From a virus, in the IMG/VR virus record IMGVR_UViG_3300047491_001293, positions 1 through 64,000 of that record: a stretch of DNA of 64,000 nucleotides, one strand, 5' to 3'. Position numbers and translations under genes: made by a program. The notes beneath the pieces are model-generated. The model searched no databases and was not told the origin of the DNA. It worked only from the letters and a program-made list of their open reading frames with translations. Every line of letters begins with the position of its first letter. The first letter of the stretch is position 1. Positions 2,351 to 60,330 of this stretch are shown in pieces.

Positions 2351-2842
2351 ATGAAAACATTCAAACAGTTCATGGAGGATGAGGAGAGAAAGCTGGTGGT
2401 CCAGGGTGTTCTGGTCGAAGACATGCAGGACAAGCTCCGAAGACTACTTAGCCAGATAGCCTCAGCGACAACGGCAGCTGGAGTGGTGTCACTGAGCCAA
2501 TCTGCTGGAATAGACCTTGACCAGCTAGACCAAATGGGGATTGGCATAGGCGAAATCATGGAGTTCCTCAAGAGGGCAAGGTTGACGGTTGATCAATTCA
2601 AGATACTGAGCTCCTTGAGGGATGATCTTAAGCTGCGACTCAGAGACCAATGCTTCTCAGACCTTTCAAAGTTCAAAGGCACGACCAGATGGCTGGATGA
2701 AAAGGGAAAGAGCATAGATGCCTGCAAAAAGTATTGCGACATGACCAAGGATGAAAAAGCGTGTAGCAAGTCTGGGAGCACGGTATACAACTTTGGAAGA
2801 TACAAGAGGGTTGCAAGGAACCCATTCGCAAGAAGGTATTAG
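2351..2842 (+). CDS. Leader-tagged protein, putative internal head protein (163 aa)
   Basis: Begins MKTFKQFMEDEE, the closest match here to the T4 capsid-targeting sequence MKTYQEFIAE. The rest is helical (residues 15-110), with a repeated hydrophobic pattern and GIDLDQLDQMGIGIGEIM, then a cysteine-containing basic tail (DACKKYCDMTKDEKACSKS; ends NPFARRY). No enzymatic domain recognised. The start has no Shine-Dalgarno site but sits three bases after a late-promoter-like box. I infer packaging into the head and leader removal; function after that is unknown. Confidence 0.75.
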   Translation: MKTFKQFMEDEERKLVVQGVLVEDMQDKLRRLLSQIASATTAAGVVSLSQSAGIDLDQLDQMGIGIGEIMEFLKRARLTVDQFKILSSLRDDLKLRLRDQCFSDLSKFKGTTRWLDEKGKSIDACKKYCDMTKDEKACSKSGSTVYNFGRYKRVARNPFARRY

Positions 2843-3149
2843 CATTAATGCAACCTTTCCAGAGAACACATCAAATTGGGCCTCACGCTGGCTGTGAAGG
2901 ATCTCCTAATATATCTCTATTAGGACTTTCTTCACATAATTTGATGGTTCCATCCTCTGAACCAGAGGTAGAGGTGGCGGTAAGCACTACCCGAAGGGTG
3001 GAATCATCAGCTGGTCCACACCTTAAGTGACGGCATGTGGCCATTGTTGGGCATGGTAAAAAAAAGTTTTTTTAGAATTACAGTAAACTTTCCCCTTCTC
3101 GGGCGAATAAGAATGTGTGATTTGTAAGAAATGACCCAAGGAGTTCCCC
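2843..3149. other. Intergenic region with hairpins; possible ncRNA or UTR
   Basis: About 300 bp without a supportable gene. Two clear hairpins are visible: CCTAATA-TATCTC-TATTAGG at 2905-2924 and CCTCTG-AAC-CAGAGG at 2954-2968. An A8-G-T7 tract follows near 3060. It may be a structured leader or terminator region between the gene ending at 2842 and that starting at 3150, or a small RNA. Nothing matches a tRNA cloverleaf. Confidence 0.35.
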
Positions 3150-3620
3150 ATGAGCGAGCCAACTGACTGCCCATCTTGTCCATTCTGCGCCTTCCTCCAG
3201 AGGTTCATCCATGAATTTGAGTTCTGTGGCTTTTACGACACATTCTCCGTGGACGAGAACAACTATTACTGCTTGGATCCAGTCAAGTACCTTTCCGAGG
3301 AGATTGGGGTGTTGCCGACCATCGAAAGCATAGTTGCGGTGCAAAATTACAACCAGTTGCTGATGTGCCATGAGCTGCTGACATGCCATCTGAGGCATGA
3401 CCACAATTACGAATTCCCAGTGGTCTGGATCTGGCGCTTCTCGTCAGACTGGAAGCTTAGGTTGAAGTATTTCCTTGGGGAGATGGAGCTTTTGATGCCG
3501 AGCGTGCATTGCGTGGACAGTGATCTCATCCATATCAACTACGAAAGGTCAAATATAGCCGACTGCAACTACTACATCGAGCCGATAAACCAGGTTGCGG
3601 CAAACTGCGTGATGGTCTGA
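3150..3620 (+). CDS. Hypothetical protein, 156 aa, cysteine- and aromatic-rich
   Basis: Not recognised. Starts MSEPTDCPSCPFCAFLQRFI with a C-P-S-C-P-F-C cluster; further cysteines occur at TCHLRHDH, HCVDSD and DCNYY. This may be a zinc-binding or disulfide-rich fold. The rest alternates aromatic strands (YEFPVVWIWRFSSDW). Start is firm: AAGGAG lies seven bases before ATG. It follows the hairpin-rich region and is read alone on the plus strand. Confidence 0.7.
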   Translation: MSEPTDCPSCPFCAFLQRFIHEFEFCGFYDTFSVDENNYYCLDPVKYLSEEIGVLPTIESIVAVQNYNQLLMCHELLTCHLRHDHNYEFPVVWIWRFSSDWKLRLKYFLGEMELLMPSVHCVDSDLIHINYERSNIADCNYYIEPINQVAANCVMV

Positions 3621-3690
3621 GATGGATTCCGCTATACTTCTGGCGGTTTTGGGGTAGGATGCTGCGTGATCCAAGAGGCAAGGAGCATTT

Positions 3691-3819
3691 ATGTGGAATC
3701 TGGCCAACGAGCAGAAGTTCATCAAGGGTCCATTGGCGGAGCTGCTGGTGGAGTCCGCCCACCTGCGACTCAAGCGGATGGTACTCCCAGAGTCTCGGCA
3801 CTTACACATTTTATGGTAA
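3691..3819 (+). CDS. Small basic helical protein, 42 aa
   Basis: Starts MWNLANEQKFIKGPLAELLV and continues ESAHLRLKRMVLPESRHL, ending HILW. AAGGAG is placed five bases before ATG, which together with an amphipathic-helix composition supports translation. Larger overlapping frames (from 3659 and 3666) lack a binding site and are rejected. Function unknown. Confidence 0.55.
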   Translation: MWNLANEQKFIKGPLAELLVESAHLRLKRMVLPESRHLHILW

Positions 3820-3847
3820 GCCAGCTAAATATTGGGTCGATGAAATT

Positions 3848-3901
3848 GAATATATAAGTAAGAAGTAGTTGTATCCCATAAGGGTAAAAACCTTATAAAT
3901 C
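3848..3901 (+). promoter_or_regulatory. Late-promoter-like boxes upstream of 3917
   Basis: GAATATATAAG at 3848-3858 and TTATAAATC at 3893-3901 both resemble the T4 late box TATAAATA. The second lies 16 bases before the ATG at 3917, leaving room for the GAGG ribosome binding site between them. Confidence 0.45.
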
Positions 3902-3916: not shown

Positions 3917-4285
3917 ATGTTTGTATTTACGGACAATGAACTAAAGAACTGGAAAAAGGAATGCAAGACCAAGATCCGTGAGCTAAAGAGCGAAATTCTT
4001 AAGCTAAGGCATAGGATCATGGAAATACATAGTCAGGAGAGACTGAGAAAGGAAAACAAGCTGACTAGGCGTAATTTGACGCAAGTCTGTAAGAAGTATG
4101 GACTTACGCTAGCCCATGATAGGCAAAGAGATACATACATGGTGGGCATAAGTGATAAGAATATAGCCAAGCATTTTGGTGGGGTTAATCCCCTTACTGA
4201 TATGCTAAGTATCTACTACGACCCCCATATACTACTAAAAGACATAGAGGACAAGGTACTACCACTAGTGTCTAAGAATGTATAG
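3917..4285 (+). CDS. Hypothetical coiled-coil protein, 122 aa
   Basis: Residues 8-50 form a charged heptad-type helix (LKNWKKECKTKIRELKSEIL...), followed by a compact C-terminal half (LTQVCKKYGLTLAHDRQRDT, DPHILLKDIEDKVLPLVSKN). Family not recognised. Start chosen at ATG 3917 with CGAGG upstream. Its 3' end overlaps the convergent gene at 4265 by 21 bp. Confidence 0.7.
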   Translation: MFVFTDNELKNWKKECKTKIRELKSEILKLRHRIMEIHSQERLRKENKLTRRNLTQVCKKYGLTLAHDRQRDTYMVGISDKNIAKHFGGVNPLTDMLSIYYDPHILLKDIEDKVLPLVSKNV

Positions 4286-4816
4286 TTGGCAGGACGCAGA
4301 ATGTATAGAAATACGCAGTTTTGATGCAAAAATAGCGTAAATATTTGAATAATCGAGTGTTTTTAATTGATTTAACTTGTTATCTGACAAGGATGGGCCG
4401 ATGTAGAATGGCTTGCCGTTGTTCCAATCTGGGCTGTCGGTGAAGTATCCCTTTGGCTGGTAGGTGGCCTTGAGCCCCTGGATTGGGGTGATGAGTGGGT
4501 TCTCGAATGTGTTTGGGAAGCCGAACTGCCTTGCGGTGAAGTCAATTGCGTCATTGTTGACGACTGGCATGATGTGTGCGTCGCCTTGGCCGCCCTTGCC
4601 GCCCATTTCTGGGTGTTTCTTGATCATTTCCGGGCTTGGCGGCACAAGCAGCAGCACCCTTGCCTTGATGCCGTTCTGTCCTGCCCAGTTGATGAATGCC
4701 CTTGTGACGGTCTTGCAGTCCATGTGTGCGACCCTCTTGCCGGCATCGCTGGAAAGGAAGTTGGAGACGGCACTCTGGGTCTCCATGCCCTGCAGGAATT
4801 CCATGAATGTTATCAT
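4265..4816 (-). CDS. Leader-tagged papain/transglutaminase-like candidate (183 aa)
   Basis: Starts with the leader MITFMEFLQGMETQ. A Cys-His-Asp order typical of papain/transglutaminase folds follows: C34 at the start of a helix (MDCKTVTRAFINWAGQNGI), H81 in DAHIMPVV and D92 in NDAIDFTARQFGF. The linker is Gly/Lys-rich. Such folds act as peptidases, deamidases or transglutaminases on host targets; which one is unknown. It is the last gene of a minus-strand run, overlapping the upstream ART gene by ATGA, with AAAGGAA as binding site. The triad call is by eye. Confidence 0.7.
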   Translation of the reverse strand: MITFMEFLQGMETQSAVSNFLSSDAGKRVAHMDCKTVTRAFINWAGQNGIKARVLLLVPPSPEMIKKHPEMGGKGGQGDAHIMPVVNNDAIDFTARQFGFPNTFENPLITPIQGLKATYQPKGYFTDSPDWNNGKPFYIGPSLSDNKLNQLKTLDYSNIYAIFASKLRISIHSASCQLYILRH

Positions 4817-6417
4817 TTCTGTTCCTTTCCCAGTAAATCTTGGATTCTTTTGACTAAAGTTTTGAAGTTCATTCGCCCCATGGCCTTGGCAAGTTTGATG
4901 GCCTTGGTGCGGGTGTCCCAGATGCTAACATCCATGAAGGTTCTCCCGTTGTGCTCACTGACTGTGAATAGGCCACTGTCAAGCAACATCTTGAGGGTTA
5001 TGTCACTGAGCTTCTCCTTGGGAATCTCAGATCCTCTCAAGCGGGAAAACATGTCCAAGTTTTTCTCGATCAGCTTGACATTTTGTGCCCAGTAAGAGTC
5101 CCTCAGTATGTTCCTAACCTTTTCATCGGTGATATCTGGTTCAAGTATTGTGGCAATGTTGTACCCACGATCCTCCGACTTCTCGCCTATGACACCGGCA
5201 TCCAAGAGGGCGATGTATTCTGGACTGTCGCTGTATGGGGTTTGGCCATCCTTGAGCATTTTGGTGATTGGGTGTTCGGTCATGGGGACATCCTCGAACT
5301 TGACCCACCTCTTGGAACCTTCTATGTCCTTGCGCATTACCCATGGCTGTATTCTGCCTGGTTGTATTCTGCCACGATAGGCAAGGGTCGAGGATATGTC
5401 AACCGATGCTTGGGCGGTTGGAACCTTAGTGTCCTCATCGGGTGCCAGTTTATCGGGATCCAATCCAGTGGTATCAATCCGAATGATAAGTGGTTCTCCG
5501 CCATGTTTTTTTGCTGCTTGGATGGCCGCCTCACGAGTGGCTGCGTCTGGGTCTGTGGCAAGGTAAACAAGGTCGTCGTGGCTGAGAGCATAGACATTGG
5601 TCGAGCCATATGATCCTGAGGATCCCGTGACACTCCTTGGCTGTAGTCCCTTCTGCTTGATCCCATCATACCAAAGGTTTGTCGATGTGCCGTGGTAGAA
5701 GTGCTTGGGCATCTTGTTGGCAAGTCGGATTTCGGGCCTGCTCATCCAGTATGCCACGGTTCTGTGTTTATTCTTCGCCCCCTTCATGTGGCCTGCTTGG
5801 AAGTAATGCTCCACGGAGTAGCTGTCTATGTCGGTGTACTTGCTCCTGAGGGCATTAATGATCTGACGGAATTCCTTGGATTGTGGGCTGAGCTTTTGTA
5901 GTTGGATGGTTTTCCAACCCAAGACAAAGTGTGGCTTATTGGTCTTATAGTCGTAAGGAACGACATTGCCTTTGTTGTCCAAGGTCAGATGGATGTTTCG
6001 ATTGATATATGGACGACCGTCATCAGTCTTGTACTTTTCAAGGCTGGTGACCTTTGGATCAAGGATTGCCTCCTTGATTTGTAGCCACTCCTTGAACCTC
6101 CAGTACATAGTTTTTGCGGTTGGTGATGACAGGGTGTAGTCCATGTGTCGTCCCTTGTTGTGCACAAAGTCATTCTTGCGATAGAATCGCTCAAGTGCAC
6201 CCTTCTTGCCGGATTCATGCTCTGGACTGAGGACGATTGGCTTGCCAACCTTGGCTGCGTAATCTTTGATCATGCGGATTATATCGGTTCCGACCCCGGC
6301 ATTGCGCTTGTCTGGCTGGACATTGATCTTCCTCAACTCGATGCGGTCTTTGGACTCATGCGCCTCAACCTCGGCTGACTTGTGTTTGGAACGGATCTGG
6401 TCAAGAACTTCTTCCAT
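4813..6417 (-). CDS. GNAT - internal leader - ADP-ribosyltransferase-like fusion (534 aa)
   Basis: Residues 26-100 look like a GNAT acetyltransferase (IELRKINVQPDKRNAGVGTD, later LERFYRKNDFV). Residues 104-120 read MYWRFKEWLQIKEAILD, the same leader placed at protein starts elsewhere. Residues 235-330 resemble the KptA/ART fold: H242-G-T-S, GIKQKGLQP, DLVYLATDPDAA and EPLIIRIDTTGLD. The C-terminal 190 residues are helical and unassigned. It is translationally coupled to the genes on both sides. The internal methionine (genome position 6108) has no obvious binding site or promoter box, so a fused polyprotein or cleavage site is likelier than internal initiation. No family search was possible. 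Confidence 0.8.
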   Translation of the reverse strand: MEEVLDQIRSKHKSAEVEAHESKDRIELRKINVQPDKRNAGVGTDIIRMIKDYAAKVGKPIVLSPEHESGKKGALERFYRKNDFVHNKGRHMDYTLSSPTAKTMYWRFKEWLQIKEAILDPKVTSLEKYKTDDGRPYINRNIHLTLDNKGNVVPYDYKTNKPHFVLGWKTIQLQKLSPQSKEFRQIINALRSKYTDIDSYSVEHYFQAGHMKGAKNKHRTVAYWMSRPEIRLANKMPKHFYHGTSTNLWYDGIKQKGLQPRSVTGSSGSYGSTNVYALSHDDLVYLATDPDAATREAAIQAAKKHGGEPLIIRIDTTGLDPDKLAPDEDTKVPTAQASVDISSTLAYRGRIQPGRIQPWVMRKDIEGSKRWVKFEDVPMTEHPITKMLKDGQTPYSDSPEYIALLDAGVIGEKSEDRGYNIATILEPDITDEKVRNILRDSYWAQNVKLIEKNLDMFSRLRGSEIPKEKLSDITLKMLLDSGLFTVSEHNGRTFMDVSIWDTRTKAIKLAKAMGRMNFKTLVKRIQDLLGKEQK

Positions 6418-6418
6418 G

Positions 6419-7210
6419 TTATGATCTCTTGTACCTGTAGGTTATGTAGGCGCTTGCGTCGAAGTTGTCATTCCATATCAGCGCATTGACACTCTCCCGT
6501 GTCCTCTCGATTGTGGCCTCGAATGGGATGAACTCCAGGGCCTTTTCCTCGAGGTCCTTGGCCATCTCATGGAGCATGTACTTCGTGTACTTGTCGAATG
6601 TGGGCTTGTCCTTCTCCCAGCCCCTCTGCAGTGGGAAGTACTCTGGGTCGAGCTTCTTGCCATCTGGCCTCTCTGGGTGGTAGTGCTTGTAGTACTCTAC
6701 ATTCTGGCCAAGCATTGATGCCTTGATGTGGTACCACACATAGTCGGACATGTCGCCCTTGTCAAGGGTGTGCCAGAGCTCATCTGGCCTTACGCCAAGT
6801 GGCTTCCAGAGGTCGCTTCCTGACATCTTCAGCGTTGCGTGGATCCTCTCATCGATGGTCTCAACCGGGAGCTTCCACTCGACGCTGATGACAATCTCGC
6901 CTGTTGGGGCGAAGCTGGGATCATCGACCTCCTCATCGGGCAGGTGCTCCTTGAGGTCAATTTCCGGCTTGGTCTTGAATATCATCTCGAATATCTTGTT
7001 CTTTATCTTCCTTGCGAATGGGCTTGTGTTGCACCATTCCGTGAGCTGCCTGTCAAACCTTGACAGCTTGTCCCACTCCCACTCCCCATCGTCATCGCCG
7101 CCACCGCCGTCCCCGGTGTCTATGTCATCGATGCCGCCGCCGCCGGACTTGAGGGTTGGCGTGCCGGCCTTGGTGGCCATGCTCTCCAGGAATTCCTTGA
7201 ATGTGATCAT
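6419..7210 (-). CDS. Leader-tagged protein with Gly/Asp linker (263 aa)
   Basis: Starts MITFKEFLESMATKAGT, followed by a flexible Gly/Asp linker (SGGGGIDDIDTGDGGGG), then a structured domain (WDKLSRFDRQLTEWCNTSPF ... YITYRYKRS) rich in Trp, Tyr and acidic residues. Domain not recognised. Leader, flexible spacer, folded cargo is the layout expected if the leader is clipped. The frame extends 15 codons upstream to 7255, but ATG 7210 carries the leader and follows a CATAGATAA box by four bases, with no Shine-Dalgarno site. First gene of a three-gene minus-strand operon. Confidence 0.75.
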   Translation of the reverse strand: MITFKEFLESMATKAGTPTLKSGGGGIDDIDTGDGGGGDDDGEWEWDKLSRFDRQLTEWCNTSPFARKIKNKIFEMIFKTKPEIDLKEHLPDEEVDDPSFAPTGEIVISVEWKLPVETIDERIHATLKMSGSDLWKPLGVRPDELWHTLDKGDMSDYVWYHIKASMLGQNVEYYKHYHPERPDGKKLDPEYFPLQRGWEKDKPTFDKYTKYMLHEMAKDLEEKALEFIPFEATIERTRESVNALIWNDNFDASAYITYRYKRS

Positions 7211-7241: not shown

Positions 7242-7724
7242 ATGGCGAACATCATTGGTTTTTTTGAGTGGCTTGGTCGCAGGGATGGAGCTCTTCCGCC
7301 CTTGCCTGGTGAGCATCCGATTCCGTCTGGCCATGTGAGGTTGTACCATCAGACCGATCCATCGAATGTGGATTCCATACTTGCGCATGGCTTGGGGAAA
7401 TCGCACTCAAAAGGTGCCAATTTTGATGAGCCATCCGTCATATGGGCTGGCAGGGAGCCGTTCTATGGTGGCGTCTATGGCGATGGTGTCGCAACGGTGG
7501 AGTTTTCGGTTCCGAAGATCCAGTTTGATGCGCCCGACAAGCTCCGTGTTGACACGGTGCCTCCTGAGTCCATCATTGCGGTGCACCTGAACTGGCATGG
7601 GATAGCCCGCCAGTTGATTAGGGACTACCCCGATGATGCCGATTATGTCCGTGGCTTTGCGGACATAGACAACGACCACAGGATGGCGGTCGATGCGTAT
7701 CTGAGGCACATGGGCAAGGCTTGA
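7242..7724 (+). CDS. ADP-ribosyltransferase-like protein with leader (160 aa)
   Basis: Begins MANIIGFFEWLGRR, a variant of the leader. The body starts VRLYHQTDPSNVDSILAHGL (H36), the opening strand and helix of many ADP-ribosyltransferase and KptA-like folds (YHxT...I...GL). It continues SVIWAGREPFYGG and VATVEFSVPKIQF. An acidic residue that could act as the catalytic glutamate is V-E-F or later, but I cannot fix it. NAD-dependent modification of host protein or nucleic acid is inferred. It runs divergently from another leader gene and ends next to the convergent gene at 7725. Confidence 0.7.
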   Translation: MANIIGFFEWLGRRDGALPPLPGEHPIPSGHVRLYHQTDPSNVDSILAHGLGKSHSKGANFDEPSVIWAGREPFYGGVYGDGVATVEFSVPKIQFDAPDKLRVDTVPPESIIAVHLNWHGIARQLIRDYPDDADYVRGFADIDNDHRMAVDAYLRHMGKA

Positions 7725-9533: not shown

Positions 9534-9890
9534 TCACCCCAGTTTCTCACGCCATATCTTGGCGTCCTTCCTGACATCCTGGTTGTACTTGCTCCAGTTC
9601 AGGAGGTGGCCGAAGAGGAAGTGGCAGTTGAGTGTCCTGTTCTGGCAGAGCACAATGAAGTTGGTTTCATCCAGTTCCCTTTCGCCATCTACATGCACGG
9701 GTACGACATGGTGCACGGCCAAATTCTCGGTGCTGCCACAAGCTGCGCAGCATGGGTTTGACTCCAGGAAGGCGTCCCTTTTCTTTCTCCACTTGCCGCT
9801 TCTGACGCAGAAGATTGCCCTCCGCTCCTCGGCTGAGAGCAGACCTACGCCTTGGCCTCCAAAGAGCCAGTTCCAGAATTTCCTGATCAT
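9534..9890 (-). CDS. HNH endonuclease with leader-like N-terminus (118 aa)
   Basis: Contains the HNH finger: CCAACGST (Cys pair), LAVHHVVPVHVDGERELDET, then NFIVLCQNRTLNCHFLFGH, followed by a helical WSKYN...WREKL tail. HNH nucleases cut or nick DNA using a metal held by this finger. The frame extends to 9980, but the ATG at 9890 is preferred: it gives MIRKFWNWLFGG, close to the leader pattern, and lies three bases after CCTAAATAGG. It could be a homing, packaging or injected nuclease. It is divergent from the leader-tagged gene at 9937. Confidence 0.75.
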   Translation of the reverse strand: MIRKFWNWLFGGQGVGLLSAEERRAIFCVRSGKWRKKRDAFLESNPCCAACGSTENLAVHHVVPVHVDGERELDETNFIVLCQNRTLNCHFLFGHLLNWSKYNQDVRKDAKIWREKLG

Positions 9891-9936: not shown

Positions 9937-11076
9937 ATGAGATTCAAAGATTGGATGATATCCGAGAGCTCCAAGGGCATAGTGTCACTGGCCTACCCGG
10001 CGGTTGTCGCAAAGATATTCAACCGCAACCTTGGCAAGCATGCGCAGCTGATGGCGAAGTGGTACCGTGACTACATGTGGCCGAAAGATGAGTTCCCAAG
10101 GAACTGGTGGCACCAGGCTCACTGGTCAGCAAGGGGCAACATCACCATATCTGACTACACGGACCTATACGATGCCGCAACCGACGAGGCATCCTACAAC
10201 AAAATGCTTCGGCAACTGGGGATTGAGTTGGATGGAGGCAGTGAGTTCAACAGCGAGGAAAAGCGCAAGAGAATAGAGATGCTGATCGAGCATGACATCA
10301 TGGGCAGCTCGTTCTTCAACAACAGCCTTGTGCGCAAGATACTATCCGGCGAGATCCGTGACCTGTCGCCATACAAGAACCTTCGCTTTGGCGATGCCCA
10401 GATGAGCCTTGAGAAGAAGATGATGTTCTCCGGCATGAAAACGGTCAAGTCGTACGAGGATGGATACAAGTGGATTGATGTTGGGTCGAAGTGCAGTTAC
10501 ATTGGCAGGGAGATGAGGAACTGCGGCAGGGCCCTCTCAGTCTACGGCGACCAAGACAAGACAATACTTGTGCTTTTCGACGGCAATGAAAAGCCGCACA
10601 TACTGGTCACATATCTCCCCAACGACAGGGTCATAACCGCAGACGAGGGTGTTGGGAGCTCTGAGCCCAAGGAGAAGTACCATGGCTACATACTTGACCT
10701 CGCCAGCCACCTCGGCGCAGAGTATGACATCCACCACGCAAAGTCCAATACCTTGAGGGGCAAGTACCTGCTGTCACGCCTTGGGGCGAATTTTGAGAAG
10801 CTGCCAATCGAGGACACATTTTATGTGTACCATGTTTTTGAGGTTGGTGGCCGCAAGTTTTACACGAACGGATATACTGTCGTGCCCGCCGAGGATGTCG
10901 ACAGGGTTGGGGCAGCCATTGGCGATGGCAGCCTCGTTCTGTCTGGCGTGAAGAAAGGGCGGATTCCACTCAATGAACTGATAAAGCTGGTCATGTCACG
11001 GGCTCACGCCAGAAACCTTGAGGATTTTGGGGTAAGGTACCAATCGCTTGAATCCATGCCAAGGGCTGGGGCTTAG
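9937..11076 (+). CDS. Leader-tagged 379-aa protein with PcfJ-like motif
   Basis: Starts MRFKDWMISESSKGIVSLA. N-terminal half is helical. The central part, GSKCSYIGREMRNCGRALSV (about residues 188-207), then ILVLFDGNEKPHILVTYLPN and IDLASHLGAEYDIHHAKSNT-like strands, recalls the C-x(6-8)-EM-NC core of PcfJ-like proteins; I rate that as weak. The C-terminus is alpha/beta and unassigned. Leader plus near-leaderless promoter suggest a packaged late protein. Confidence 0.7.
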   Translation: MRFKDWMISESSKGIVSLAYPAVVAKIFNRNLGKHAQLMAKWYRDYMWPKDEFPRNWWHQAHWSARGNITISDYTDLYDAATDEASYNKMLRQLGIELDGGSEFNSEEKRKRIEMLIEHDIMGSSFFNNSLVRKILSGEIRDLSPYKNLRFGDAQMSLEKKMMFSGMKTVKSYEDGYKWIDVGSKCSYIGREMRNCGRALSVYGDQDKTILVLFDGNEKPHILVTYLPNDRVITADEGVGSSEPKEKYHGYILDLASHLGAEYDIHHAKSNTLRGKYLLSRLGANFEKLPIEDTFYVYHVFEVGGRKFYTNGYTVVPAEDVDRVGAAIGDGSLVLSGVKKGRIPLNELIKLVMSRAHARNLEDFGVRYQSLESMPRAGA

Positions 11077-11077
11077 A

Positions 11078-13199: not shown

Positions 13200-13200
13200 G

Positions 13201-14989: not shown

Positions 14990-15602
14990 ATGTCATTCAC
15001 CCAATTCCTAGATGCAACAATTGTAAACCTGGAAAAACACTTGGCGTGCGAGATTCCCAAAATCATCGACCTGGACAGCCAGAAGGATGATGTGTGATAA
15101 TTTTGACGCCAATGGTTTGACTTGAAGTTGCCCCAGGAACTTGGGCGCCTGTTAGACCAACACTCTATGTTCGAGTTGCTGTTTGCTTTTGTTATCATTG
15201 GTTGCTCACATTAAAACCACCCAGGCAAATGATCTGGAGAAGCCATTTTTCCAGTTTGAACAATGCGATCGGCCGCTTGGCCAGCTCCTTGTGCATTGGT
15301 AGGCCAAGGACTGCGTCCATTGGTGCGAGAATGGCCTCCACCTTTCATCCGACCAACATGATGTGTCATCGGCACGGTTCGTTCTGTGCATCATGGGTCA
15401 TAAGCCCTCCTTGAAGCAAGCGCTTCTTGTCTTGAAAAAAAGACCAAGGTTTGACTCTTGGCAGCCAAAACTGGACCAGTTGATGCTTTTCTTGCCGCAG
15501 AGTCGGGATAGGAACTCCCTGGCAACGAGGGAATTATTGTAGGATCTTGACCAGGACTGGGAGCCATTATTTTTCCTTGTGATCATGGCTTCTTCTTCTT
15601 GA
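14990..15602 (+). pseudogene. Decayed leader-tagged gene relic B with in-frame TAG codons
   Basis: ATG at 14990 gives MSFTQFLDATIVNLEKHLAC, a leader start, with stops at 15095-15106. The same frame then reopens (WFDLKLPQELGRLLDQHSMF). After a shift near 15205, one frame stays open from 15210 to a TGA at 15600 except for TAG at 15300 and TAG at 15540; it includes SLKQALLVLKKRPRFDSWQP. Other genes here use TAG as a normal stop, so general recoding is unlikely. Best read as a broken gene of about 200 codons. Confidence 0.45.
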
Positions 15603-15998: not shown

Positions 15999-16000
15999 CC

Positions 16001-16729
16001 ATGGTGACTTTCTTTGAGTTTGTTGAGATACTGAGGCTTGAGGCCGCCGAAATAGCACGGGATCTTGGCGAGTTCAAGATCATCCATGACGGCATGGGAG
16101 ATTACCACAGCAGCTTCTCCCATGCGTCAACGCCAATAACCGTCTATTTCAAAAAGAAGGCCATGAGGGAGCCATCCTTTTCCAAGGATGAATCTGGCAA
16201 GCCAACACTGGAAAGGCTAAGTGGTTATGAGATAACATTCAAGGGTCTTAAGGACTTTGAGCCGACTGGGGAGGCTGGTGGCGATGCATTCTCCATTTAC
16301 GGCAAGGTGCTCGCTGTGGTGAAGAAATTCTTGGATGAGATGGCAACAAAGAAGCCAAACCCCGTTGAGTTCATCACATTCACTGGGTTTGACCCAAGGA
16401 TGAGCTTGATCTACGAGAGGTTTGTGAGGAAGCACCTTGGCGGGATGTACACCAGAGTTGACCCAGAGCATCTGGTGAGGAATGATGTGGTCAATGCCGC
16501 CAGGTCAATGACGCAGGGTGCGTCTGACAAGGCAATACAAGTTGGTCAAGATAGCCATGTTGGCTACCTTGACCAGATAAGACAGGCCAAGGGGAGCCAG
16601 GCTGCGCTGCAGCTCCTCAAGGCGCCAGAGGCGGAGAAGTCAGTGCCTTGGTATATGGTCAGGACAGCGCAACATCAACAACCAACGAAAGGAAAGAGAA
16701 ATGTACGACAGGAACAACCAGCACTATAA
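16001..16729 (+). CDS. Leader-tagged protein, paralogue of the gene at 40300 (242 aa)
   Basis: Starts MVTFFEFVEILRLEAAEIAR. Body alternates strands and helices (SGYEITFKGLKDFE, FSIYGKVLAVVKKFLDEMAT, PVEFITFTGFDPRMSLIYER, GGMYTRVDPEHLVRND). The same order of elements occurs in the leader protein at 40300-40974, so the two form a family. The last 40 residues (after SVPWYM) are Gln/Lys-rich and overlap the next gene by 29 bp. No function recognised. Confidence 0.72.
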   Translation: MVTFFEFVEILRLEAAEIARDLGEFKIIHDGMGDYHSSFSHASTPITVYFKKKAMREPSFSKDESGKPTLERLSGYEITFKGLKDFEPTGEAGGDAFSIYGKVLAVVKKFLDEMATKKPNPVEFITFTGFDPRMSLIYERFVRKHLGGMYTRVDPEHLVRNDVVNAARSMTQGASDKAIQVGQDSHVGYLDQIRQAKGSQAALQLLKAPEAEKSVPWYMVRTAQHQQPTKGKRNVRQEQPAL

Positions 16730-40299: not shown

Positions 40300-40974
40300 T
40301 CACCATGTAAATATGCCTTTTCTGACACTTTGCGGCTTTGTCGCAGTTGATGGACTTTCCCTCTTCTGAGCCTTTAGCTGTTTCTTACGATCAACATCCT
40401 TGGCCGAAAATTTTGACATTTCAAACTCAAACCTTGCCCCCAGAAGCTCTTGCAGCAAGTCGGTGTGGACATAGTAATCCATACCAAGAGAATTTTCAAC
40501 CAGTTGGTAGCCAGCTGGACGCAAGAAAATTGTGTACAGCTTGTGGTATACGGACTTTTGGTCAACTGTCGATCCATAAAACTGTAGGACTTTTGGCCTT
40601 TCAACCTCAATCAAGGTTTTCACGGCACTGATCACCTCGGTTATGACATGGGTCGGACTTGCGCTTTTTCCAGTAGGCAGGTAGGCACGAACTGGGTGTG
40701 AATCGGATTCTTCCTTGAATGAAATGTTGAAACCCTTGACGCTTTTTATTTTTGACAATGCCTCATGGCCACGGATGCCAAGGTCATGACCCAAGTCGGC
40801 AGCCATAAATGCTTTTGGTATTGGCTGGATCATGACCTCAAAATATCCCATCTTGCCAGACTTGCTTGGTGAGCTGAATGTGTGCGTGAGGACATCACCA
40901 TGCCTCTGCAGCGCAACGGGACTGCTGGATGCAATCACCTCGACAATGTGAAAAAACTCAAAGAAACGAATCAT
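40300..40974 (-). CDS. Leader-tagged protein, paralogue of the gene at 16001 (224 aa)
   Basis: Starts MIRFFEFFHIVEVIASSSPV. Core elements VKGFNISFKEESDSHP, VITEVISAVKTLIEVERPKV-LQFYGST, KSVYHKLYTIFLRPAGYQLV and YYVHTDLLQELLG follow the same order as the 16001 protein (strand, helix, P-x(5)-F-x-G, S-x-Y, Gly-Tyr strand). The frame continues to 41004, but ATG 40974 carries the leader and directly follows CATATATACATT, with no Shine-Dalgarno site. Basic C-terminal tail. Confidence 0.72.
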   Translation of the reverse strand: MIRFFEFFHIVEVIASSSPVALQRHGDVLTHTFSSPSKSGKMGYFEVMIQPIPKAFMAADLGHDLGIRGHEALSKIKSVKGFNISFKEESDSHPVRAYLPTGKSASPTHVITEVISAVKTLIEVERPKVLQFYGSTVDQKSVYHKLYTIFLRPAGYQLVENSLGMDYYVHTDLLQELLGARFEFEMSKFSAKDVDRKKQLKAQKRESPSTATKPQSVRKGIFTW

Positions 40975-41865: not shown

Positions 41866-42674
41866 AACATTTTATCAAGCCAGAGCATGGCTGGAAGATA
41901 TTGTTTTGGCCACAGATAATACCCGAATGCATTCAAGAATTCAACTTTTGGATTCCTGGATTTTTTTATTGTGTCTTTTATGTTCTTGAGATTTTCAAAT
42001 TTCAAATATGGATGCCTTTTCAATAGTCTTTCCCAGAAAACATCTGGATCAAATTTATCCTCTGGCATGAAAAGCTTATCTGATTTCTGCCCAGATCCAT
42101 ATTCATTGGCAAATTCATCTGGTGTGATTTTTTTACCTTTAACATAAAAAGCTTTTATTCTACTTGGATTCAAGTCGCCAACAAACAAGGCTTGGTTTTC
42201 CGTGGAAACGAAAAGCAAATAGGCCATGTATGGGTTGTCACTTTCCCTGACAAAGCTAGGCAAATCTTTGTTCTGCTTGAATTCCATCTCAAACTTTTTC
42301 TTTGCTTTTATTCTTTCAATATTGCCCTTGAAAACTTGCACATACTGGCCTTGGATTCCATATGAACCACTTGGCCACACTGGCGGCTCAAGCTCTTCGT
42401 ATTTGGCAACAAACTCAACAACAACACCATCAGAACCAATAAACTTCTCCGCCGTTTTTACATCAAGAGTCACGAAAAGACCTTTGGGGTTGGTGGCCGC
42501 CTCATAAGAGTATCTTCTCTTGGCTCTGACTTTACCTGACAATCCTTGAGTTGCCAAATTGATGGCATCATTGATGTCGTTGAAACCATGATACACAGTC
42601 AGAGTGTCGCCTTTCTTCAAGGGTTCAGTGGAGTCAAGCTGGTGATGGGTTTCAAGCCATAGTTTAAAGTTCAT
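41862..42674 (-). CDS. Leader-tagged ADP-ribosyltransferase-like protein (270 aa)
   Basis: Leader MNFKLWLETHHQLDSTEPLK, then GDTLTVYHGFNDINDAINLA (H29; ART strand 1 YHG), GLFVTLDVKTAEKFIGSDGV (the T/S-x-D-x-x-x-A segment) and VVVEFVAKYEELEPP, where an acidic residue could be catalytic. The C-terminal half (LFVGDLNPSRIKAFYVKGKK, QKSDKLFMPEDKF) recurs in the partial gene at the right edge. Likely NAD-dependent modifier delivered by the virion (inference). GTAAATAAATC immediately before ATG; no Shine-Dalgarno site. Confidence 0.75.
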   Translation of the reverse strand: MNFKLWLETHHQLDSTEPLKKGDTLTVYHGFNDINDAINLATQGLSGKVRAKRRYSYEAATNPKGLFVTLDVKTAEKFIGSDGVVVEFVAKYEELEPPVWPSGSYGIQGQYVQVFKGNIERIKAKKKFEMEFKQNKDLPSFVRESDNPYMAYLLFVSTENQALFVGDLNPSRIKAFYVKGKKITPDEFANEYGSGQKSDKLFMPEDKFDPDVFWERLLKRHPYLKFENLKNIKDTIKKSRNPKVEFLNAFGYYLWPKQYLPAMLWLDKMF

Positions 42675-45539: not shown

Positions 45540-45569
45540 ACGGGCGCCAGGATGGTGCCCGTTTTTTTT
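45540..45569 (+). terminator. Rho-independent terminator after hsp20
   Basis: Stem ACGGGCGCC / GGTGCCCGT (one G-T pair) with a 5-nt loop at 45540-45562, followed by eight T. It lies 20 bp past the Hsp20 stop and abuts the end of the minus-strand gene at 45568. Confidence 0.88.
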
Positions 45570-47853
45570 ACAATGTAGATCCAATGTTCTGACTGGTGGA
45601 CACGACTGGAATCAGCGTGGACACCTTGGCTGTGAACTGCTGCCCATCATCTGTGGATATCACGGCGGATTGTGCGCCACGGATCATTCTGAATGAAGCG
45701 ATCCTTCCACTTTTTCCATAGTTCAATCCACTGGAAACAAAAACCTTATCGCCAATCCCAAAGTTTCCACCGTCCAAACCTTGCTGCCTCTCACTTGGCT
45801 GGTTTGCAGCACTGGATGTATCCCTCTGAATGTATGTCACTGGCAGCTCAACAGCTCTTGACACACCTGGTCCTGATCTTGCGTTAAGGACCCTCAGCGA
45901 TGCATAAAGAATGTTGTTCTTTATTCTCATGCTGGTAATGACACCCTTCTTCTTGTTGCCAACAGAGAAATGCGAAACTATGAAGTGATCACCAGGCTTT
46001 AACCTCTCCCTATTGTGCGGGTGCGAAAGTATTGCATCAAGGTTTGCCGGGGTTTGAATCTTTATCTCCTCTTTTTCACCGTCATCCATATTTTCAATGT
46101 CGTCCCTCTTGGCTCTCCTATCTTCCTTCTTTTCCTTTCTCAAGAGATCGGCATCGATTTCGGCGTCTGAACTCAAAAACCTTGGCCACATCTTGACAGT
46201 CTCATCATCCCACTGGACCTTGACTCTCAAATCAAACACAATGTCGTCCAGTGAACCAACGCCTCTTGTGCGCAGCGAGAACGACAAAACCTTGCCCCTT
46301 TGCTTCAATTCCCTCCGCATTGGATCAATCGACCCAATCACGGTGTCGCCTTCCTTGTAGTCGATTCCTTCTGACCTCCTCTTCTCCTCAATCTTGCCCT
46401 TGTACCATTTGATGTGATCTCGGACAGAATCAACCTTGGTCAATAGCAACAAATCAACCTGATTGTCAGACTCCTCCTCAATGTCAAACTCGGCGCTGGT
46501 TGGGTTTTTTTGGAACTGCAGTTTGGCCATGACCTGATCTGATCTCTCGTTGATGATTGAAAACCCAAGAACCTTGAAGCACTTCAATGCATATGGGGCG
46601 AACTCACGCCTTATATAGTTGAAACGGGCAATGTCGCCAACCTTGATTCCACTTGGATTGTTGGCTCTGTCCGCAGCAAGCGCATTGGCACGAGCCGCCA
46701 TGCGTTCAGCCCTGTTGCGCCGTGCGACTTGCATTGACCTCTCAATGTCATCGTCAATGTCCTGCATCATATCCGTGCGTATTCTTGAGAGCAATCCAAA
46801 TGGGTTGCTCATGGAGTTTATCTTTTGGCTCAGCACCTCAAATGCCTTTGACTTGACGAAGCCGTCACTGTCTGCGTTGACATCGATGCTGCTGTACACT
46901 GTTTCGCCAGAGTCATTCTTGACTATGTCGCCATCCTTGTTCCTCTTGGGGATCAAGATAGTTTTTGGAACCTCTGGGAAACCTTGAGGTACAAAATTTT
47001 TGTCATACGCATCACGGTTGATCCAATTGCCAAAGATGCCAACAAACTTGTCGGGGAAAAGGTTCTTTATGCTCCATGTCTCATACACATTTTTTCTTGC
47101 CGAAACTGTCTGGCTCCTAAACTTATCAATCTGCTCTGGCGTCCTTTTTATCTTTGCTGCACGCACGGCCCCAGATATGTCGGTCTTTTCGACTGGCGTC
47201 CAAGACATGCTAACAGGTTTCAATGTCTTTATGTACTCACCAACGGCATGCATGACCCCGGCAAAGACACCTGGGCCGATTGGAACCTTTATGGTCTCCA
47301 CGGATCCATCACTCTTCTTTCGGTACATCTTCCTTGTGATCTTCATATCCGTGTATTCACCGCCACGGAAGAATGATATTGACACGACACGCCTTGGGTC
47401 GCCAGATATGTTGACTGAGTAACAGGTGGGATTGTGGCCTCGGTAGCTAAGGCACCGACATGGATTCTCATTTCTTTCACTACATCCATCACCAAGAACA
47501 TTGAACCTATATGTGTAACTGTTACTTGGCACGACCTCACCAGAGTCAATGTCTGATCTTTTTGGCAGTGGCTCCAGCCAGTGTCCATCGTAAAACTTTT
47601 TGTCAAACTCCAGATCGCCAACCTTGGCCATGACGACATCGCCAGAATCCCTGTATACCTCCGCATCGTCACCATCTATGGACTTTATCACCCCATGGAT
47701 CGTCTCGCCATCAGCCTTGGCAATGACATCATCGCCAACCGCAAAGCTGCCAGATTTTTCCTCATGAAGGAGGCGCATCTGGCAATCAATAACTTCGGCA
47801 AGAAAATCAAACTTTGACTCTTCGTTGGCGAGGAATTTCCTGAAATCACGCAT
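45568..47853 (-). CDS. Leader-tagged 761-aa protein with KOW/SH3-like segments
   Basis: Leader MRDFRKFLANEESKFDFLAE. Several SH3/KOW-like beta segments: SFAVGDDVIAKADGETIHGV-IKSIDGD near residue 36, KEGDTVIGSIDPMRRELKQR near 495, and FGIGDKVFVSSGLNYGKSGR-IASFR near 700. A Cys cluster (DGCSERNENPCRCLSYRGHN) near 133-156 may bind zinc. Largest tagged protein in the window. It looks like a modular DNA- or RNA-binding virion protein. Near-leaderless start with ATATATAG before ATG. Confidence 0.75.
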   Translation of the reverse strand: MRDFRKFLANEESKFDFLAEVIDCQMRLLHEEKSGSFAVGDDVIAKADGETIHGVIKSIDGDDAEVYRDSGDVVMAKVGDLEFDKKFYDGHWLEPLPKRSDIDSGEVVPSNSYTYRFNVLGDGCSERNENPCRCLSYRGHNPTCYSVNISGDPRRVVSISFFRGGEYTDMKITRKMYRKKSDGSVETIKVPIGPGVFAGVMHAVGEYIKTLKPVSMSWTPVEKTDISGAVRAAKIKRTPEQIDKFRSQTVSARKNVYETWSIKNLFPDKFVGIFGNWINRDAYDKNFVPQGFPEVPKTILIPKRNKDGDIVKNDSGETVYSSIDVNADSDGFVKSKAFEVLSQKINSMSNPFGLLSRIRTDMMQDIDDDIERSMQVARRNRAERMAARANALAADRANNPSGIKVGDIARFNYIRREFAPYALKCFKVLGFSIINERSDQVMAKLQFQKNPTSAEFDIEEESDNQVDLLLLTKVDSVRDHIKWYKGKIEEKRRSEGIDYKEGDTVIGSIDPMRRELKQRGKVLSFSLRTRGVGSLDDIVFDLRVKVQWDDETVKMWPRFLSSDAEIDADLLRKEKKEDRRAKRDDIENMDDGEKEEIKIQTPANLDAILSHPHNRERLKPGDHFIVSHFSVGNKKKGVITSMRIKNNILYASLRVLNARSGPGVSRAVELPVTYIQRDTSSAANQPSERQQGLDGGNFGIGDKVFVSSGLNYGKSGRIASFRMIRGAQSAVISTDDGQQFTAKVSTLIPVVSTSQNIGSTL

Positions 47854-49921: not shown

Positions 49922-50362
49922 TTAGGGCTTTACGCCAGATGGATCAAAATCCGCACCAGGTGCTGGTTTGGCAGCCGTGGTCGGTATGGTTCCAGGCATC
50001 TGTTTGTTCTGGACTTGTGATGCTTGGCTTTCCAGTTCCTTGATAGTTTGATCAAGCCATCTGACCATTGGCATTGCTTTAACGCCACCGGCAACACCAG
50101 TGGTGGTTGAATCCTTCCAATTAGGATCTTTACTTATAGCATCCAAGGCCTTTTTCAATGCGTCAACGGCATTGTCATATTTCACCTTGGGGCCAGCCAC
50201 TTGGCTATAGGCAGCTTGGCTGCCCTGCTTAACACCTTGCCAAAGCTGCTTTGCGCCCTGCCAAAGGTTTTTGCCAAAGTCCATGAGTCCAGCCTCATCA
50301 ATGCCAATGCTTTCATACAACTTCGGATCACGATGTTCAAGATATTCACTAAATTTGTACAT
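49922..50362 (-). CDS. Leader-tagged protein, 146 aa
   Basis: Starts MYKFSEYLEHRDPKLYESIG, with NLWQGAKQLWQGVKQGSQAA (a repeated LWQG-KQ motif), VKYDNAVDALKKALDAISKD and a Pro/Ala-rich C-terminus (GTIPTTAAKPAPGADFDPSG). GGAGAAAT before ATG. Domain unknown; the duplicated amphipathic motif could contact membrane or DNA. Confidence 0.7.
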   Translation of the reverse strand: MYKFSEYLEHRDPKLYESIGIDEAGLMDFGKNLWQGAKQLWQGVKQGSQAAYSQVAGPKVKYDNAVDALKKALDAISKDPNWKDSTTTGVAGGVKAMPMVRWLDQTIKELESQASQVQNKQMPGTIPTTAAKPAPGADFDPSGVKP

Positions 50363-52210: not shown

Positions 52211-53854
52211 ATGTCAAATGGAATAACAAGTCAATCTGGACCAGCATATAAATCAGTTGTAGTTGAATACAAAGACGGGGCATCCAACATAACCGTAACT
52301 CCAGAAACACCCTTGCCAGTTACTGGGACTATTACAACTGGAGATTCTGGTTTACCAGAAGCAGATCCGCTTCCAGTATTTCAACCAGTTTCACAAGGAG
52401 CTTTTGGTGATCAAATAGTAGCAAATCTAAGTCAAGAAATTTCATTAATGTTTAATTATCATGTAGATTCAGATGTGTTAAGCACTTTAACACAGAGCAG
52501 TGCCAGTGTAACCACAGCTAATTCAAAAATGATTTTAGCAACTGGTGGTGTTATGGGGTCTTTAGCCGTTGTAAAAAGCAAAGATTATTTAAGATACAGA
52601 CCCGGATATGGTGGACTGGCTAGATTTACTTTGGGAGTAACAACAGGATACACTGGCACCGAACAAACTGCTGGAGTTGGAAATGAAGAGGATGGCTTTT
52701 TTTTCAGCTACAGAGATCATGATGAGTCTGGAAATCCAGATATGTGTATTGTAAGAAGATCTTTTGGTGCAAGAGAAATAAGATACCTTACGATAACAAA
52801 TGGATCAAGCTCCGCTGCCAACACAACAATTACTCTTAATAGTGTTGCTGTAACCGTTGCTGTAAGCAACAATTCTAATGCAGTAAATCAAACTGCAACC
52901 AATATAGCAAATAATTTTACCTCTACTGACTGGACAGCTTCAGCACATGGCAACATAGTTGTGTTTCGTGCTGTGCATGCTGGTGTAAAAAGTGGAACAT
53001 ATAGCTTTTCCGCTGGCACATCTGGAATTACCACAAGTCCATCTGGAGAACTCACTCAAAAAGTAGCTGGTGTCAACAAAAACGAAGAAGTCATTTCAAG
53101 TGCCAACTGGAATTATGATAAAGCTGATGGTACGGGAACTTTGCCAGATTTAGATTGGAGCAAAGGAAATGTGTACCAGATCAAATATCAGTGGTTGGGA
53201 TATGGTATGATTCAGTTTTATATTGAAGATCCAACTTTGGGAAGATTTATTAGAGTTCACGCTATAGAATATGCAAATACAAGCACCATTCCAACCGTGG
53301 GCAATCCCACATTTCCATTTTACTTTCACGCAAGTAATTCCAATTCAGTACAAAATATAAGCATGTTTACTTCATCATGTGGTGGTTTTGTGGAAGGAAA
53401 TACTGGCAGAAGCACTGGAGGAAATCAAAAAACATATACTGTATCAGATAGTTGTGGAGATTCTGGGACCCTAATAGCAACTCTGTTTAATCCAAATAAC
53501 TTTAAAAGTAAAAATTCCAGAGTTCAAGTGTCCATTTCTGATATTTCTGCTTCGGCTGCCTCGCCAGTAACATTTAGATTTTACAGAAATGCAGCTTTGA
53601 CTGGGACAGCAAGTTGGACTTCTATAGGAACCAACAGTTGCATGTATTATGACGAGGGATCTACAAGTTTTTCTGGTGGTGATTTAGCCTGTGCGATACG
53701 AGTAGAACATCAATCAAACAATAATTTAACTGCCAGAGACATTAGCGATGGCATTTTAACATTACATCCGGGTGACACATTAAGCATTGTCGCCACTTCA
53801 GATTCTGGCACCGTTAAAGTTGGATGTTCAATCAACTGGGTTGAATACTTATAA
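52211..53854 (+). CDS. Putative virion fibre or surface protein (547 aa)
   Basis: Ser/Thr/Asn/Gly-rich, beta-dominated: TTGDSGLPEADPLPVFQPVS, YGGLARFTLGVTTGYTGTEQ, FFFSYRDHDESGNPDMCIVR, NVYQIKYQWLGYGMIQFYIE and FIRVHAIEYANTSTIPTVGN. This matches the style of large-phage fibre and capsid-decoration proteins. A Cys pair in TSSCGGF / DSCGDSG may form a disulfide. AT-rich compared with neighbours. Preceded by the best late promoter here. Confidence 0.72.
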   Translation: MSNGITSQSGPAYKSVVVEYKDGASNITVTPETPLPVTGTITTGDSGLPEADPLPVFQPVSQGAFGDQIVANLSQEISLMFNYHVDSDVLSTLTQSSASVTTANSKMILATGGVMGSLAVVKSKDYLRYRPGYGGLARFTLGVTTGYTGTEQTAGVGNEEDGFFFSYRDHDESGNPDMCIVRRSFGAREIRYLTITNGSSSAANTTITLNSVAVTVAVSNNSNAVNQTATNIANNFTSTDWTASAHGNIVVFRAVHAGVKSGTYSFSAGTSGITTSPSGELTQKVAGVNKNEEVISSANWNYDKADGTGTLPDLDWSKGNVYQIKYQWLGYGMIQFYIEDPTLGRFIRVHAIEYANTSTIPTVGNPTFPFYFHASNSNSVQNISMFTSSCGGFVEGNTGRSTGGNQKTYTVSDSCGDSGTLIATLFNPNNFKSKNSRVQVSISDISASAASPVTFRFYRNAALTGTASWTSIGTNSCMYYDEGSTSFSGGDLACAIRVEHQSNNNLTARDISDGILTLHPGDTLSIVATSDSGTVKVGCSINWVEYL

Positions 53855-59194: not shown

Positions 59195-59197
59195 CAA

Positions 59198-59644
59198 CTA
59201 TTTAGATTCTATGTTGTACTTTTCCTTGAGATAGGAAATTAAGACTTTTTGTTCAGTGTCCATGTCCTTGTGTTGATCATAAAGATCTTGGTATCTTTTT
59301 TGCAAGTTGTCCATTTTCTCCCTCTGCTTCCTCAGTGGGAATTCAGTCTTAAAAAAATCATCCGAACCAATCTTTATTGACTCAAGAAAATCGGCATACT
59401 CAGTTGCCAGCTTGATCCGCTTCTCACTGTACATCAACACAAGGGAATCAACATTTTTTGTTGACATTGATCGTATTTTTGCGATGGCATTCTTTATTTC
59501 CATAGATGCCATTGATGGCTTAGAATTAACCGCTGTGTTGAACTTGTGTATTATGTCATTTAGGCCAATCCAGTACCTTTTTGTGGCTATCTCTTGCTCT
59601 GGCGTAATTGCAAACATCACCAATTGAAACAATAAAACTGTCAT
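59198..59644 (-). CDS. Helical protein with hydrophobic N-terminus (148 aa)
   Basis: Starts MTVLLFQLVMFAITPEQEIA, a signal-like or anchor segment, followed by a long helical body (IGLNDIIHKFNTAVNSKPSM, LATEYADFLESIKIGSDDFF, KTEFPLRKQREKMDNLQKRY). GGGAGG upstream. Could be a periplasmic spanin-like or envelope protein; unassigned. Confidence 0.65.
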   Translation of the reverse strand: MTVLLFQLVMFAITPEQEIATKRYWIGLNDIIHKFNTAVNSKPSMASMEIKNAIAKIRSMSTKNVDSLVLMYSEKRIKLATEYADFLESIKIGSDDFFKTEFPLRKQREKMDNLQKRYQDLYDQHKDMDTEQKVLISYLKEKYNIESK

Positions 59645-59750
59645 TTTATGATCCTCCCTATAGATAATACTTGGATCTTAGCATGAATTGCTAAAAAAAA
59701 TCAATAGCGATATCACCATCAATATGCCTTATCAAATGGGAGGCATGGAT

Positions 59751-59760
59751 AATATATAAT
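59751..59760 (+). promoter_or_regulatory. Late-promoter-like box AATATATAAT
   Basis: About 21 bp before the ATG at 59782, with GAGGTGA between as the ribosome binding site. Confidence 0.45.
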
Positions 59761-59781
59761 GAACGAACCATGAGGTGAAAA

Positions 59782-60330
59782 ATGAAATTTGAAGAATATG
59801 CTGCCATGAGGGAGGCGACCACTCCCATGATCCTAAAAGAAAGTACAAATGGCCTTTCAGAGAACATAAAATACCATCTGGAAAACAATTTGTCTCTTTC
59901 GGACAGTGTATTTAGAATTGGTTCCACCGCATACTTAGATCTTGTCAATGAGGTGCGTGACTTGCACCTTGATGGCAAACTGGAACTCAATGAAAATGAT
60001 CTATTCATCATCATGACTGAGGCTGGGCGTACTGGCGTATATCAAGGAAAACAAGTTCCACTCGACAGCCCAAAAAGAGGCGGATCAAAGAAATTCTATG
60101 TTTTTGTCAATAGCGGCAGAAAAAACGCAGATGGCCGTGTTGTGGCCAAAAAAGTCAGTTGGGGAGACCGAAAACTTTCAGTCAAAAACCAAAGCGACAA
60201 GGCCAGAAAGAGCTTTTTGGCACGGCACAAATGCTCACAGAAATCAGATAGGAAAACCGCTGGATGGTGGGCATGCAATGTAAACAGATATGCCAAACAG
60301 CTCGGTCTTGTAAGCACAAAAAAATGGTGA
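59782..60330 (+). CDS. Leader-tagged DUF5872-like virion protein (182 aa)
   Basis: Starts MKFEEYAAMREATTPMILKE. The C-terminal part KKFYVFVNSGRKNADGRVVA-KKVSWGDRKLSVKNQSDKAR and KSFLARHKCSQKSDRKTAGW-WACNVNRYAKQ matches DUF5872 (V-x-F-G-D...RKSFxARHxCxxxxxKTxxxxWxC), seen among T4-like phage head-associated proteins. This ties the leader to a virion-linked domain. Start set by GAGGTGAAAA. Confidence 0.82.
   Translation: MKFEEYAAMREATTPMILKESTNGLSENIKYHLENNLSLSDSVFRIGSTAYLDLVNEVRDLHLDGKLELNENDLFIIMTEAGRTGVYQGKQVPLDSPKRGGSKKFYVFVNSGRKNADGRVVAKKVSWGDRKLSVKNQSDKARKSFLARHKCSQKSDRKTAGWWACNVNRYAKQLGLVSTKKW

Follow-up and report, generated by a model that had tools for sequence, protein, structure and literature searches.

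In bacteriophage T4 the internal protein IPI starts with MKTFKEF, IPII and IPIII with MKTYQEFIAE and gp61.1 with MKTFKEFIKED. Mutational work on this capsid-targeting sequence (CTS) assigns residues 4 and 7 to targeting and residues 8 and 10 to processing, and targeting is possible without processing (PMC9026906). Mature IPI has 76 residues (PMC3012670) and its gene product 95, which implies a 19-residue propeptide ending in ITE; the T4 cut can thus also lie well beyond the aromatic pair. Injected IPI blocks GmrSD (PMC3012670), and reviews propose that a variety of proteins is carried by the CTS in T4-like phages (PMC9026906, PMC3012670). In phage P1, a short N-terminal signal takes the anti-restriction protein DarB into the head, the first 30 residues (N30) being enough for a reporter (PMC9024508). 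The ejection proteins of SPN3US and phiKZ have N-terminal propeptides that are cut after Glu, with identical N-termini on the diverged gp53 and gp54 (PMC5694885), and the polyvalent proteins, chains of 2-15 domains, are predicted to be coinjected with the DNA (Iyer et al. 2017, PMC5512222). Here a short N-terminal leader is described on a set of otherwise dissimilar proteins encoded by the viral IMG/VR record IMGVR_UViG_3300047491_001293. The window analysed comprises bases 1-64,000 of this 84,311-base record, which is taken as a fragment. By analogy with T4, we consider it likely that the leader is of the CTS type and that its carriers enter the head during assembly and are injected; the T4 device would here be expanded and dispersed, with a divergent tag.

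A common leader on dissimilar proteins

Twelve proteins of the window (2351+, 4816-, 7210-, 9937+, 16001+, 38508-, 39266-, 40974-, 41026+, 42674-, 47853- and 50362-, named by start position and strand) begin with M-x(1-2)-[FY]-x-x-[FWY]-[LIMVF], with F at position 3-4, F, W or Y at position 6-7 and then a hydrophobic residue. All are at starts where a first-pass annotation, made from the sequence alone, had noticed a shared leader on about 16 proteins, and in all twelve the two aromatics of the N-terminal tag fall near positions 4 and 7, as in the T4 CTS. The remaining members of that list fare less uniformly. The proteins 7242+ (MANIIGFFEWL) and 9890- (MIRKFWNWL) are probable leader proteins; they have a longer prefix, each lies head to head with a definite member (7210- and 9937+, respectively), and an upstream hexamer, described below, is present at -10. 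Protein 29245+ (MGGIRFKGFL), for which a longer prefix has to be allowed, is a possible member. The membership of 59782+ is doubtful, because its homologue in contig G063 (L440_10530; 63% identity), which starts with MEEELLGYYESQEG, has no leader; for the single weak members 29245 and 59782 the resemblance may still be due to chance. A leader on a DUF5872-type domain, part of the original proposal, depends on this weakest carrier and is doubtful with it.

Exact-start matches number 10-12 among the 144 open reading frames (ORFs) of the complete 84-kb record, the last 20 kb of which were also read, compared with a mean of 0.6-0.8 and a maximum of 5 in 1000 shuffles. Decoys give 0-1 matches in 229 unchosen ORFs and 1-3 in 567 internal Met positions. 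With pooled motifs, 14 of 149 ORFs of this record match; among phages processed identically, and with weak matches counted, the figures are 5/269 for T4, 5/201 for HTVC008M, 4/216 for Melnitz, 4/285 for S-B43, 2/63 for Kolga, 1/231 for immuto, 1/125 for P1 and 3/684 for the huge phage LR745208. Among database records the latter (485 kb) comes closest for the structural protein 52211; it has little else in common with the window, is almost leaderless and served as a negative control. Enrichment over other phage N-termini, on which the first-pass proposal had been made to depend beforehand, is therefore strong with respect to shuffles, decoys and all eight phages.

Past the leader, where complete divergence had been claimed, the bodies of the window proteins do not group: each forms a cluster of its own, and the closest-looking pair, 16001/40974, shares 22% over 27 residues, which is not significant.

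Counterparts of the leader in other phages

IMG/VR was scanned for DNA encoding MITFK[EQ]F and MKTFK[EQ]F, with permuted codons of equal degeneracy as control. The two patterns match at least 119 and at least 120 stretches, respectively, and the control 21. Only residues 1-7 were specified, so that positions 8 and 10 lie outside the search pattern; among the matches listed for the first and the second pattern, nevertheless, L, I, M or V stands at position 8 in 75% and 52%, E stands at position 10 in 66% and 59%, and the triplet [LIMV]xE occupies positions 8-10 in 62% and 41%, respectively. The likeness to the capsid-targeting start of the T4 internal proteins, suspected from the window, is thereby strengthened: position and spacing agree, and the [LI]xE triplet is kept in relatives although the pattern does not force it.

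The leader proteins collected, mostly from uncultured phages, number 308 (some are redundant copies) and form 154 body clusters, of which 102 have a single member; a first set of 186 proteins had given 108 clusters. As in T4, one tag is thus found on unrelated bodies. A Pfam search over 69 of these bodies recognizes Acb1, S-adenosylmethionine (SAM) lyase, an ADP-ribosyltransferase (ART) of the ART-PolyVal type, Zeta toxin, PARP, GNAT, RNA ligase and others. The Acb1 protein of G005 starts with MISFKQFLHE, its domain begins at residue 14 and the canonical [LI]xE lies at positions 8-10, which differs from the propeptide of about 100 or more residues of the phiKZ/SPN3US type; the Acb1 protein of G002 lacks such a start. 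Tandem arrays of leader genes occur in G002 (15 of 189 ORFs), G024 (7 of 16) and G010 (12 of 545). One leader protein of the IMG/VR set matches the HK97-type capsid family (PF05065, 2.8e-24); this could be a chance match or a tagged capsid protein.

Together with contigs G017 and G006 the window forms a clade with its own dialect of the leader, which is carried by about 20 of 200 ORFs in G006 and 19 of 100 in G017 and has W as second aromatic residue in 49%. In these three, [LIVM]xE follows the leader in 22 of 46 cases, compared with 35 of 361 other N-termini. Within the window, [LI]xE is close to the tag in 9937, 38508, 39266 and 40974, and later or absent in the other members. Of the stretches read in the clade, the densest is 10893-19087 of G017 (L411), where 10 of 12 ORFs in about 8 kb have leaders.

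Genes, upstream element and prohead protease

The leader genes are listed in Table 1. A hexamer TA[TGA]A[TA]A starts 9-13 bases before the ATG in 10 of 16 leader genes of the window and in 5 of 106 other genes, a contrast whose p-value is optimistic since the pattern was picked after the window genes had been viewed. Retested elsewhere, it precedes 11 of 19 leader genes versus 1 of 67 others in G017, and 9 of 20 versus 19 of 166 in G006. Contigs L436-L440 were retrieved through the hexamer itself and are not independent. In G017, too, leader genes have the sequence TAAATAAATC-ATG seen at 42674. Upstream of leader genes only the looser hexamer is enriched; copies of the T4 late promoter TATAAATA that deviate by no more than one base are not. 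The sole perfect copy of this promoter among the scanned upstream regions precedes the virion structural gene 52211. The genes of the head-to-head pairs 7210/7242, 9890/9937 and 40974/41026 are 31-51 bases apart. The position of the hexamer suggests a promoter that would yield a nearly leaderless mRNA, and transcription from it is possibly late.

Table 1. Leader genes, possible relics and two leaderless genes of the window.
Feature	Position	Strand	N-terminus	Residues	Remarks
Leader protein	2351..2842	+	MKTFKQFMEDEERK	163	Unassigned body; hexamer TAGATA at -10
Leader protein	4265..4816	-	MITFMEFLQGMETQ	183	Cys/His/Asp pattern by eye, putative papain/transglutaminase-like
Leaderless GNAT-domain protein	4813..6417	-			Between two leader genes
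Leader protein	6419..7210	-	MITFKEFLESMATK	263	Start 7210, not 7255; hexamer at -11
Probable leader protein	7242..7724	+	MANIIGFFEWLGRR	160	Putative ART-like YHQT motif by eye
Probable leader protein, HNH nuclease	9534..9890	-	MIRKFWNWLFGG	118	Family match
Leader protein	9937..11076	+	MRFKDWMISES	379	Unassigned body; hexamer at -10
Possible relic	14301		MTFEKFNESL	31	No hydrophobic residue after second aromatic
Possible relic leader	14990..15097	+	MSFTQFLDATIVNLEKHL	35	ORF
Leader protein	16001..16729	+	MVTFFEFVEILRLE	242	Hexamer TATATA at -10
Possible leader protein	29245..29763	+	MGGIRFKGFLLHQE	172	Coiled-coil-like
Leader protein	38212..38508	-	MISFHDFLIRE	98	Downstream of 39266-
Leader protein, HD-domain hydrolase	38532..39266	-	MNFKQFLIKE	244	phrog_6931, E 4e-8
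Leader protein	40300..40974	-	MIRFFEFFHIVE	224	Divergent with 41026+
Leader protein	41026..41865	+	MKGFTHFIETQE	279	
Leader protein	41862..42674	-	MNFKLWLETHH	270	YHG motif, putative ART-like by eye
Leader protein	45568..47853	-	MRDFRKFLANEESK	761	Body clusters with leader protein L154_8519
Leader protein	49922..50362	-	MYKFSEYLEHRDPKLYESI	146	Extended leader like G017_13959 and G017_65675
Virion structural protein, leaderless	52211..53854	+			phrog_1645; perfect TATAAATA upstream
Doubtful leader protein	59782..60330	+	MKFEEYAAMRE	182	phrog_7595 domain

Several of the bodies had been thought enzymatic. For the HNH nuclease 9890 this is borne out by a match that passes the curated cut-off; the HD protein 39266, of which a leader-bearing homologue is present in L103, matches its phrog but stays below the Pfam cut-off. 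The halves of phrog_6931, an HD end and a kinase-like end, occur as separate leader proteins, in the window at 38532-39266(-) and in G017 at 65675-66397(+). The ART-like and papain-like bodies are putative; the C92 papain-like match belongs to 60607, which carries no leader. A family search with 7242 gave no match, a sequence search of the PDB yielded no relative of 39266 or 7242, and tblastn searches in phages with 47853, 16001, 7242 and 4816 were negative, as were related-locus searches with 52211, the HD protein and a 295-residue protein of the record. When the profiles of five window bodies were compared with those of all leader clusters, no assignment rose above a probability of 27%, and AlphaFold models made from the single sequences of 42674 and 4816 (predicted local distance difference test scores of 37-38) were too poor for a fold search. 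Of the two relics proposed earlier, 14990 has a good leader (MSFTQFLDATI) and 14301 a defective one; both are putative, and both lie inside a poorly coding stretch. No transfer RNA was found in the window.

The overlap of 4 bp between 4816- and the gene at 4813-6417 is consistent with an operon. The N-terminal GNAT domain of the latter protein resembles leader proteins in G002 and G024 as well as DarB/PLxRFG-like phage proteins. A second leader, of 24 residues (MSHYT[DN]Q[NK]PIS[DE]xxWM[ED]S), is found on the neighbouring proteins 7725-7997(-), 8032-8427(-) and 9108-9491(-), whose bodies are unrelated; the body of 7725 is similar to that of a protein with the canonical leader in G016 (G016_66605). 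At 11314-14166(-) three paralogues with the common start FLSLCSGIEAASVAWNPLGWE lie in tandem and are, by sequence, likely C5 methyltransferases. Poorly coding stretches at 14160-15600 of the window and about 76380-81880 of the record contain many short minus-strand ORFs with the pattern MIxK...CWN, and are possibly repeats or non-coding RNA.

A profile of the S77 prohead protease family, which detects T4 and five other control phages and does not detect P1 or Kolga, finds this protease in 16 of 25 leader contigs and in 11 of the 12 of at least 130 kb; as all contigs compared carry leaders, these figures describe an association. Among the relatives of the window, G063 encodes S77; it shares with the window a syntenic gene pair (59782 at 63% and 60335 at 56% identity), and its leader genes carry the same upstream element. 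G065, which overlaps G017 (100% over 1296 bases), has S77 as well, and a T4-type terminase (3e-100) is present in the G017-type virus. The T4-type head genes gp23 and gp20 are found in G002, G005, G009, G010 and G016 and not in the window, G017 and G006 fragments; within the record, protein 52211-53854 belongs by its match to a head/packaging family (phrog_1645, 6e-33). A ClpP-type match in G017 was considered as head protease and dropped, as G063 has such a match in addition to S77, and the family is detected in ordinary bacterial genomes.

Probable capsid targeting and its alternatives

As far as sequences go, capsid targeting is well supported, because the position and spacing of the T4 CTS, the unforced [LI]xE of the relatives, the association with S77 and the many unrelated bodies, including anti-defence and effector domains, all point to it. 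Targeting is read from the similarity of the signal, and the later steps most likely follow the example of IPI, IPIII and Alt. The two aromatic residues three apart and the hydrophobic residue would bind to the prohead core, and the tagged protein would be enclosed during shell formation. In many members a T4-type S77 prohead protease would then cut after [LI]xE, and the mature protein would leave the head together with the DNA and enter the host, where the early action of the varied bodies would most plausibly be directed at host defences or at modification of the host. In the window phage this arrangement appears to have grown to 12-15 scattered genes, most of which have a promoter-like element of their own immediately upstream of the ATG.

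Besides the late choice of the hexamer pattern and the associative nature of the S77 link, several observations weigh against this reading. In the dialect clade E is most common 5, not 3, residues past the second aromatic residue. Three definite members, 4816, 7210 and 42674, have no [LIVM]xE in their first 40 residues, so that cleavage is not predicted for them; these proteins may be targeted without being cut. The hexamer is not enriched in G005 and G016, nor in G002, G009 and G010, which are of the operon type. Profile searches of the 84-kb record and of G006 (155 kb) found neither S77 nor gp13, gp14 and gp17-23 of the T4 head and tail. The prohead protease that the first-pass annotation expected in the genome is seen in the relatives G063 and G065 and not in the fragment itself, which also lacks head genes.

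The leader could also target the prohead core on proteins that serve as core or scaffold partners in head assembly or DNA packing, and not as injected effectors. In T4 the core and internal proteins use a common core route (PMC5694885), the G017 leader genes 43376 and 65675 lie within a tail/baseplate cluster, and one of the 69 leader bodies matches the HK97-type capsid family. An assembly role is nevertheless unlikely, given bodies that are extremely diverse, include the defence-related Acb1, SAM lyase and ART-PolyVal and are unlike conserved assembly factors, and given that T4 IPI is injected and blocks its target (PMC3012670). A start independent of the capsid, either a cassette of promoter and start codon or an amphipathic helix that directs proteins to a membrane or compartment, would account for the fixed distance between hexamer and ATG in 10 of 16 leader genes, and F-x-x-[WF]-L could make an amphipathic face. 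We hold it to be quite improbable, as it leaves the position-specific match to the T4 CTS and the [LI]xE triplet unexplained. Moreover, residues are kept where codons vary (MNFK is encoded by ATGAATTTCAAG at 39266 and by ATGAACTTTAAA at 42674), and leaders that lack the hexamer are seen within operons as well as in G002, G009 and G010.

Tandem paralogue arrays in G002, G009 and G010, with clusters of 21-29, would fit a single ancient family that was duplicated and diverged beyond recognition except at the N-terminus. Such an origin is scarcely credible for bodies of different known folds (HNH, HD, Acb1, ART, GNAT and AAA), for Acb1, which is found both with and without the leader, or for the body shared by 7725 and G016_66605, which bears different leaders in the two phages. 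Chance similarity in an AT-rich phage genome is refuted for the group and its likelihood is negligible: the loose motif does yield 1-5 matches in most phages, but far fewer are found in shuffles, decoy ORFs, internal Met positions and other phages, and the permuted-codon control yields 21 matches versus at least 119 and at least 120.

Head loading and injection, if true, would give these phages a route against first-response defences, since proteins delivered together with the DNA precede any phage gene expression. One 84-kb fragment has 12-15 tagged proteins, and the 154 body clusters overall include enzymes known to act against restriction and the cyclic-oligonucleotide-based antiphage signalling system (CBASS). 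The short, searchable tag would allow the proteins that uncultured phages inject to be predicted from sequence. We give about even chances to a broader proposal, in which many large phages use the tag as a portable export code and, in one clade, the CTS and a promoter near enough to the ATG for an almost leaderless late mRNA form a cassette that makes arbitrary genes into injected effectors. On that proposal, scans for the tag would bring to light more than 100 families of effectors as yet uncharacterised, among them Acb1 (anti-CBASS) and SAM lyase proteins delivered with the virion.

Comparison with the systems described so far places the leader closest to T4. The polyvalent proteins overlap with the leader bodies in domain types (ART-PolyVal, GNAT), but the leader proteins are mostly small (98-380 residues), have a single body with at most one recognised domain instead of several disparate domains per chain, and are united by their tag. 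In SPN3US and phiKZ the propeptides are mostly longer than 100 residues, belong to few proteins and have an A-x-E motif, whereas the leader segments here span about 10-25 residues. P1 DarB likewise has a short N-terminal signal for packaging into the head, but the Dar proteins have no common consensus (PMC9024508), unlike the one consensus found here on many bodies. The genes of the window differ from those of the T4 internal proteins in their number (12-15 members in 84 kb versus about 4 in T4), their scatter over both strands, their own upstream element and enzyme bodies, and a dialect that prefers W as the second aromatic residue and places E later. With IPI, IPII, IPIII and Alt they have in common an N-terminal tag with aromatic residues at positions 4 and 7 and a hydrophobic residue at position 8, unrelated bodies and, for part of the members, the [LI]xE triplet close to the tag; in addition, S77 protease is present in relatives of the window, and the canonical dialect equals the first seven residues of IPI. 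As CTS loading in T4 is already known and its diversity has been proposed, the leader described here would represent a strong variant and an expansion of a known device rather than a new kind.

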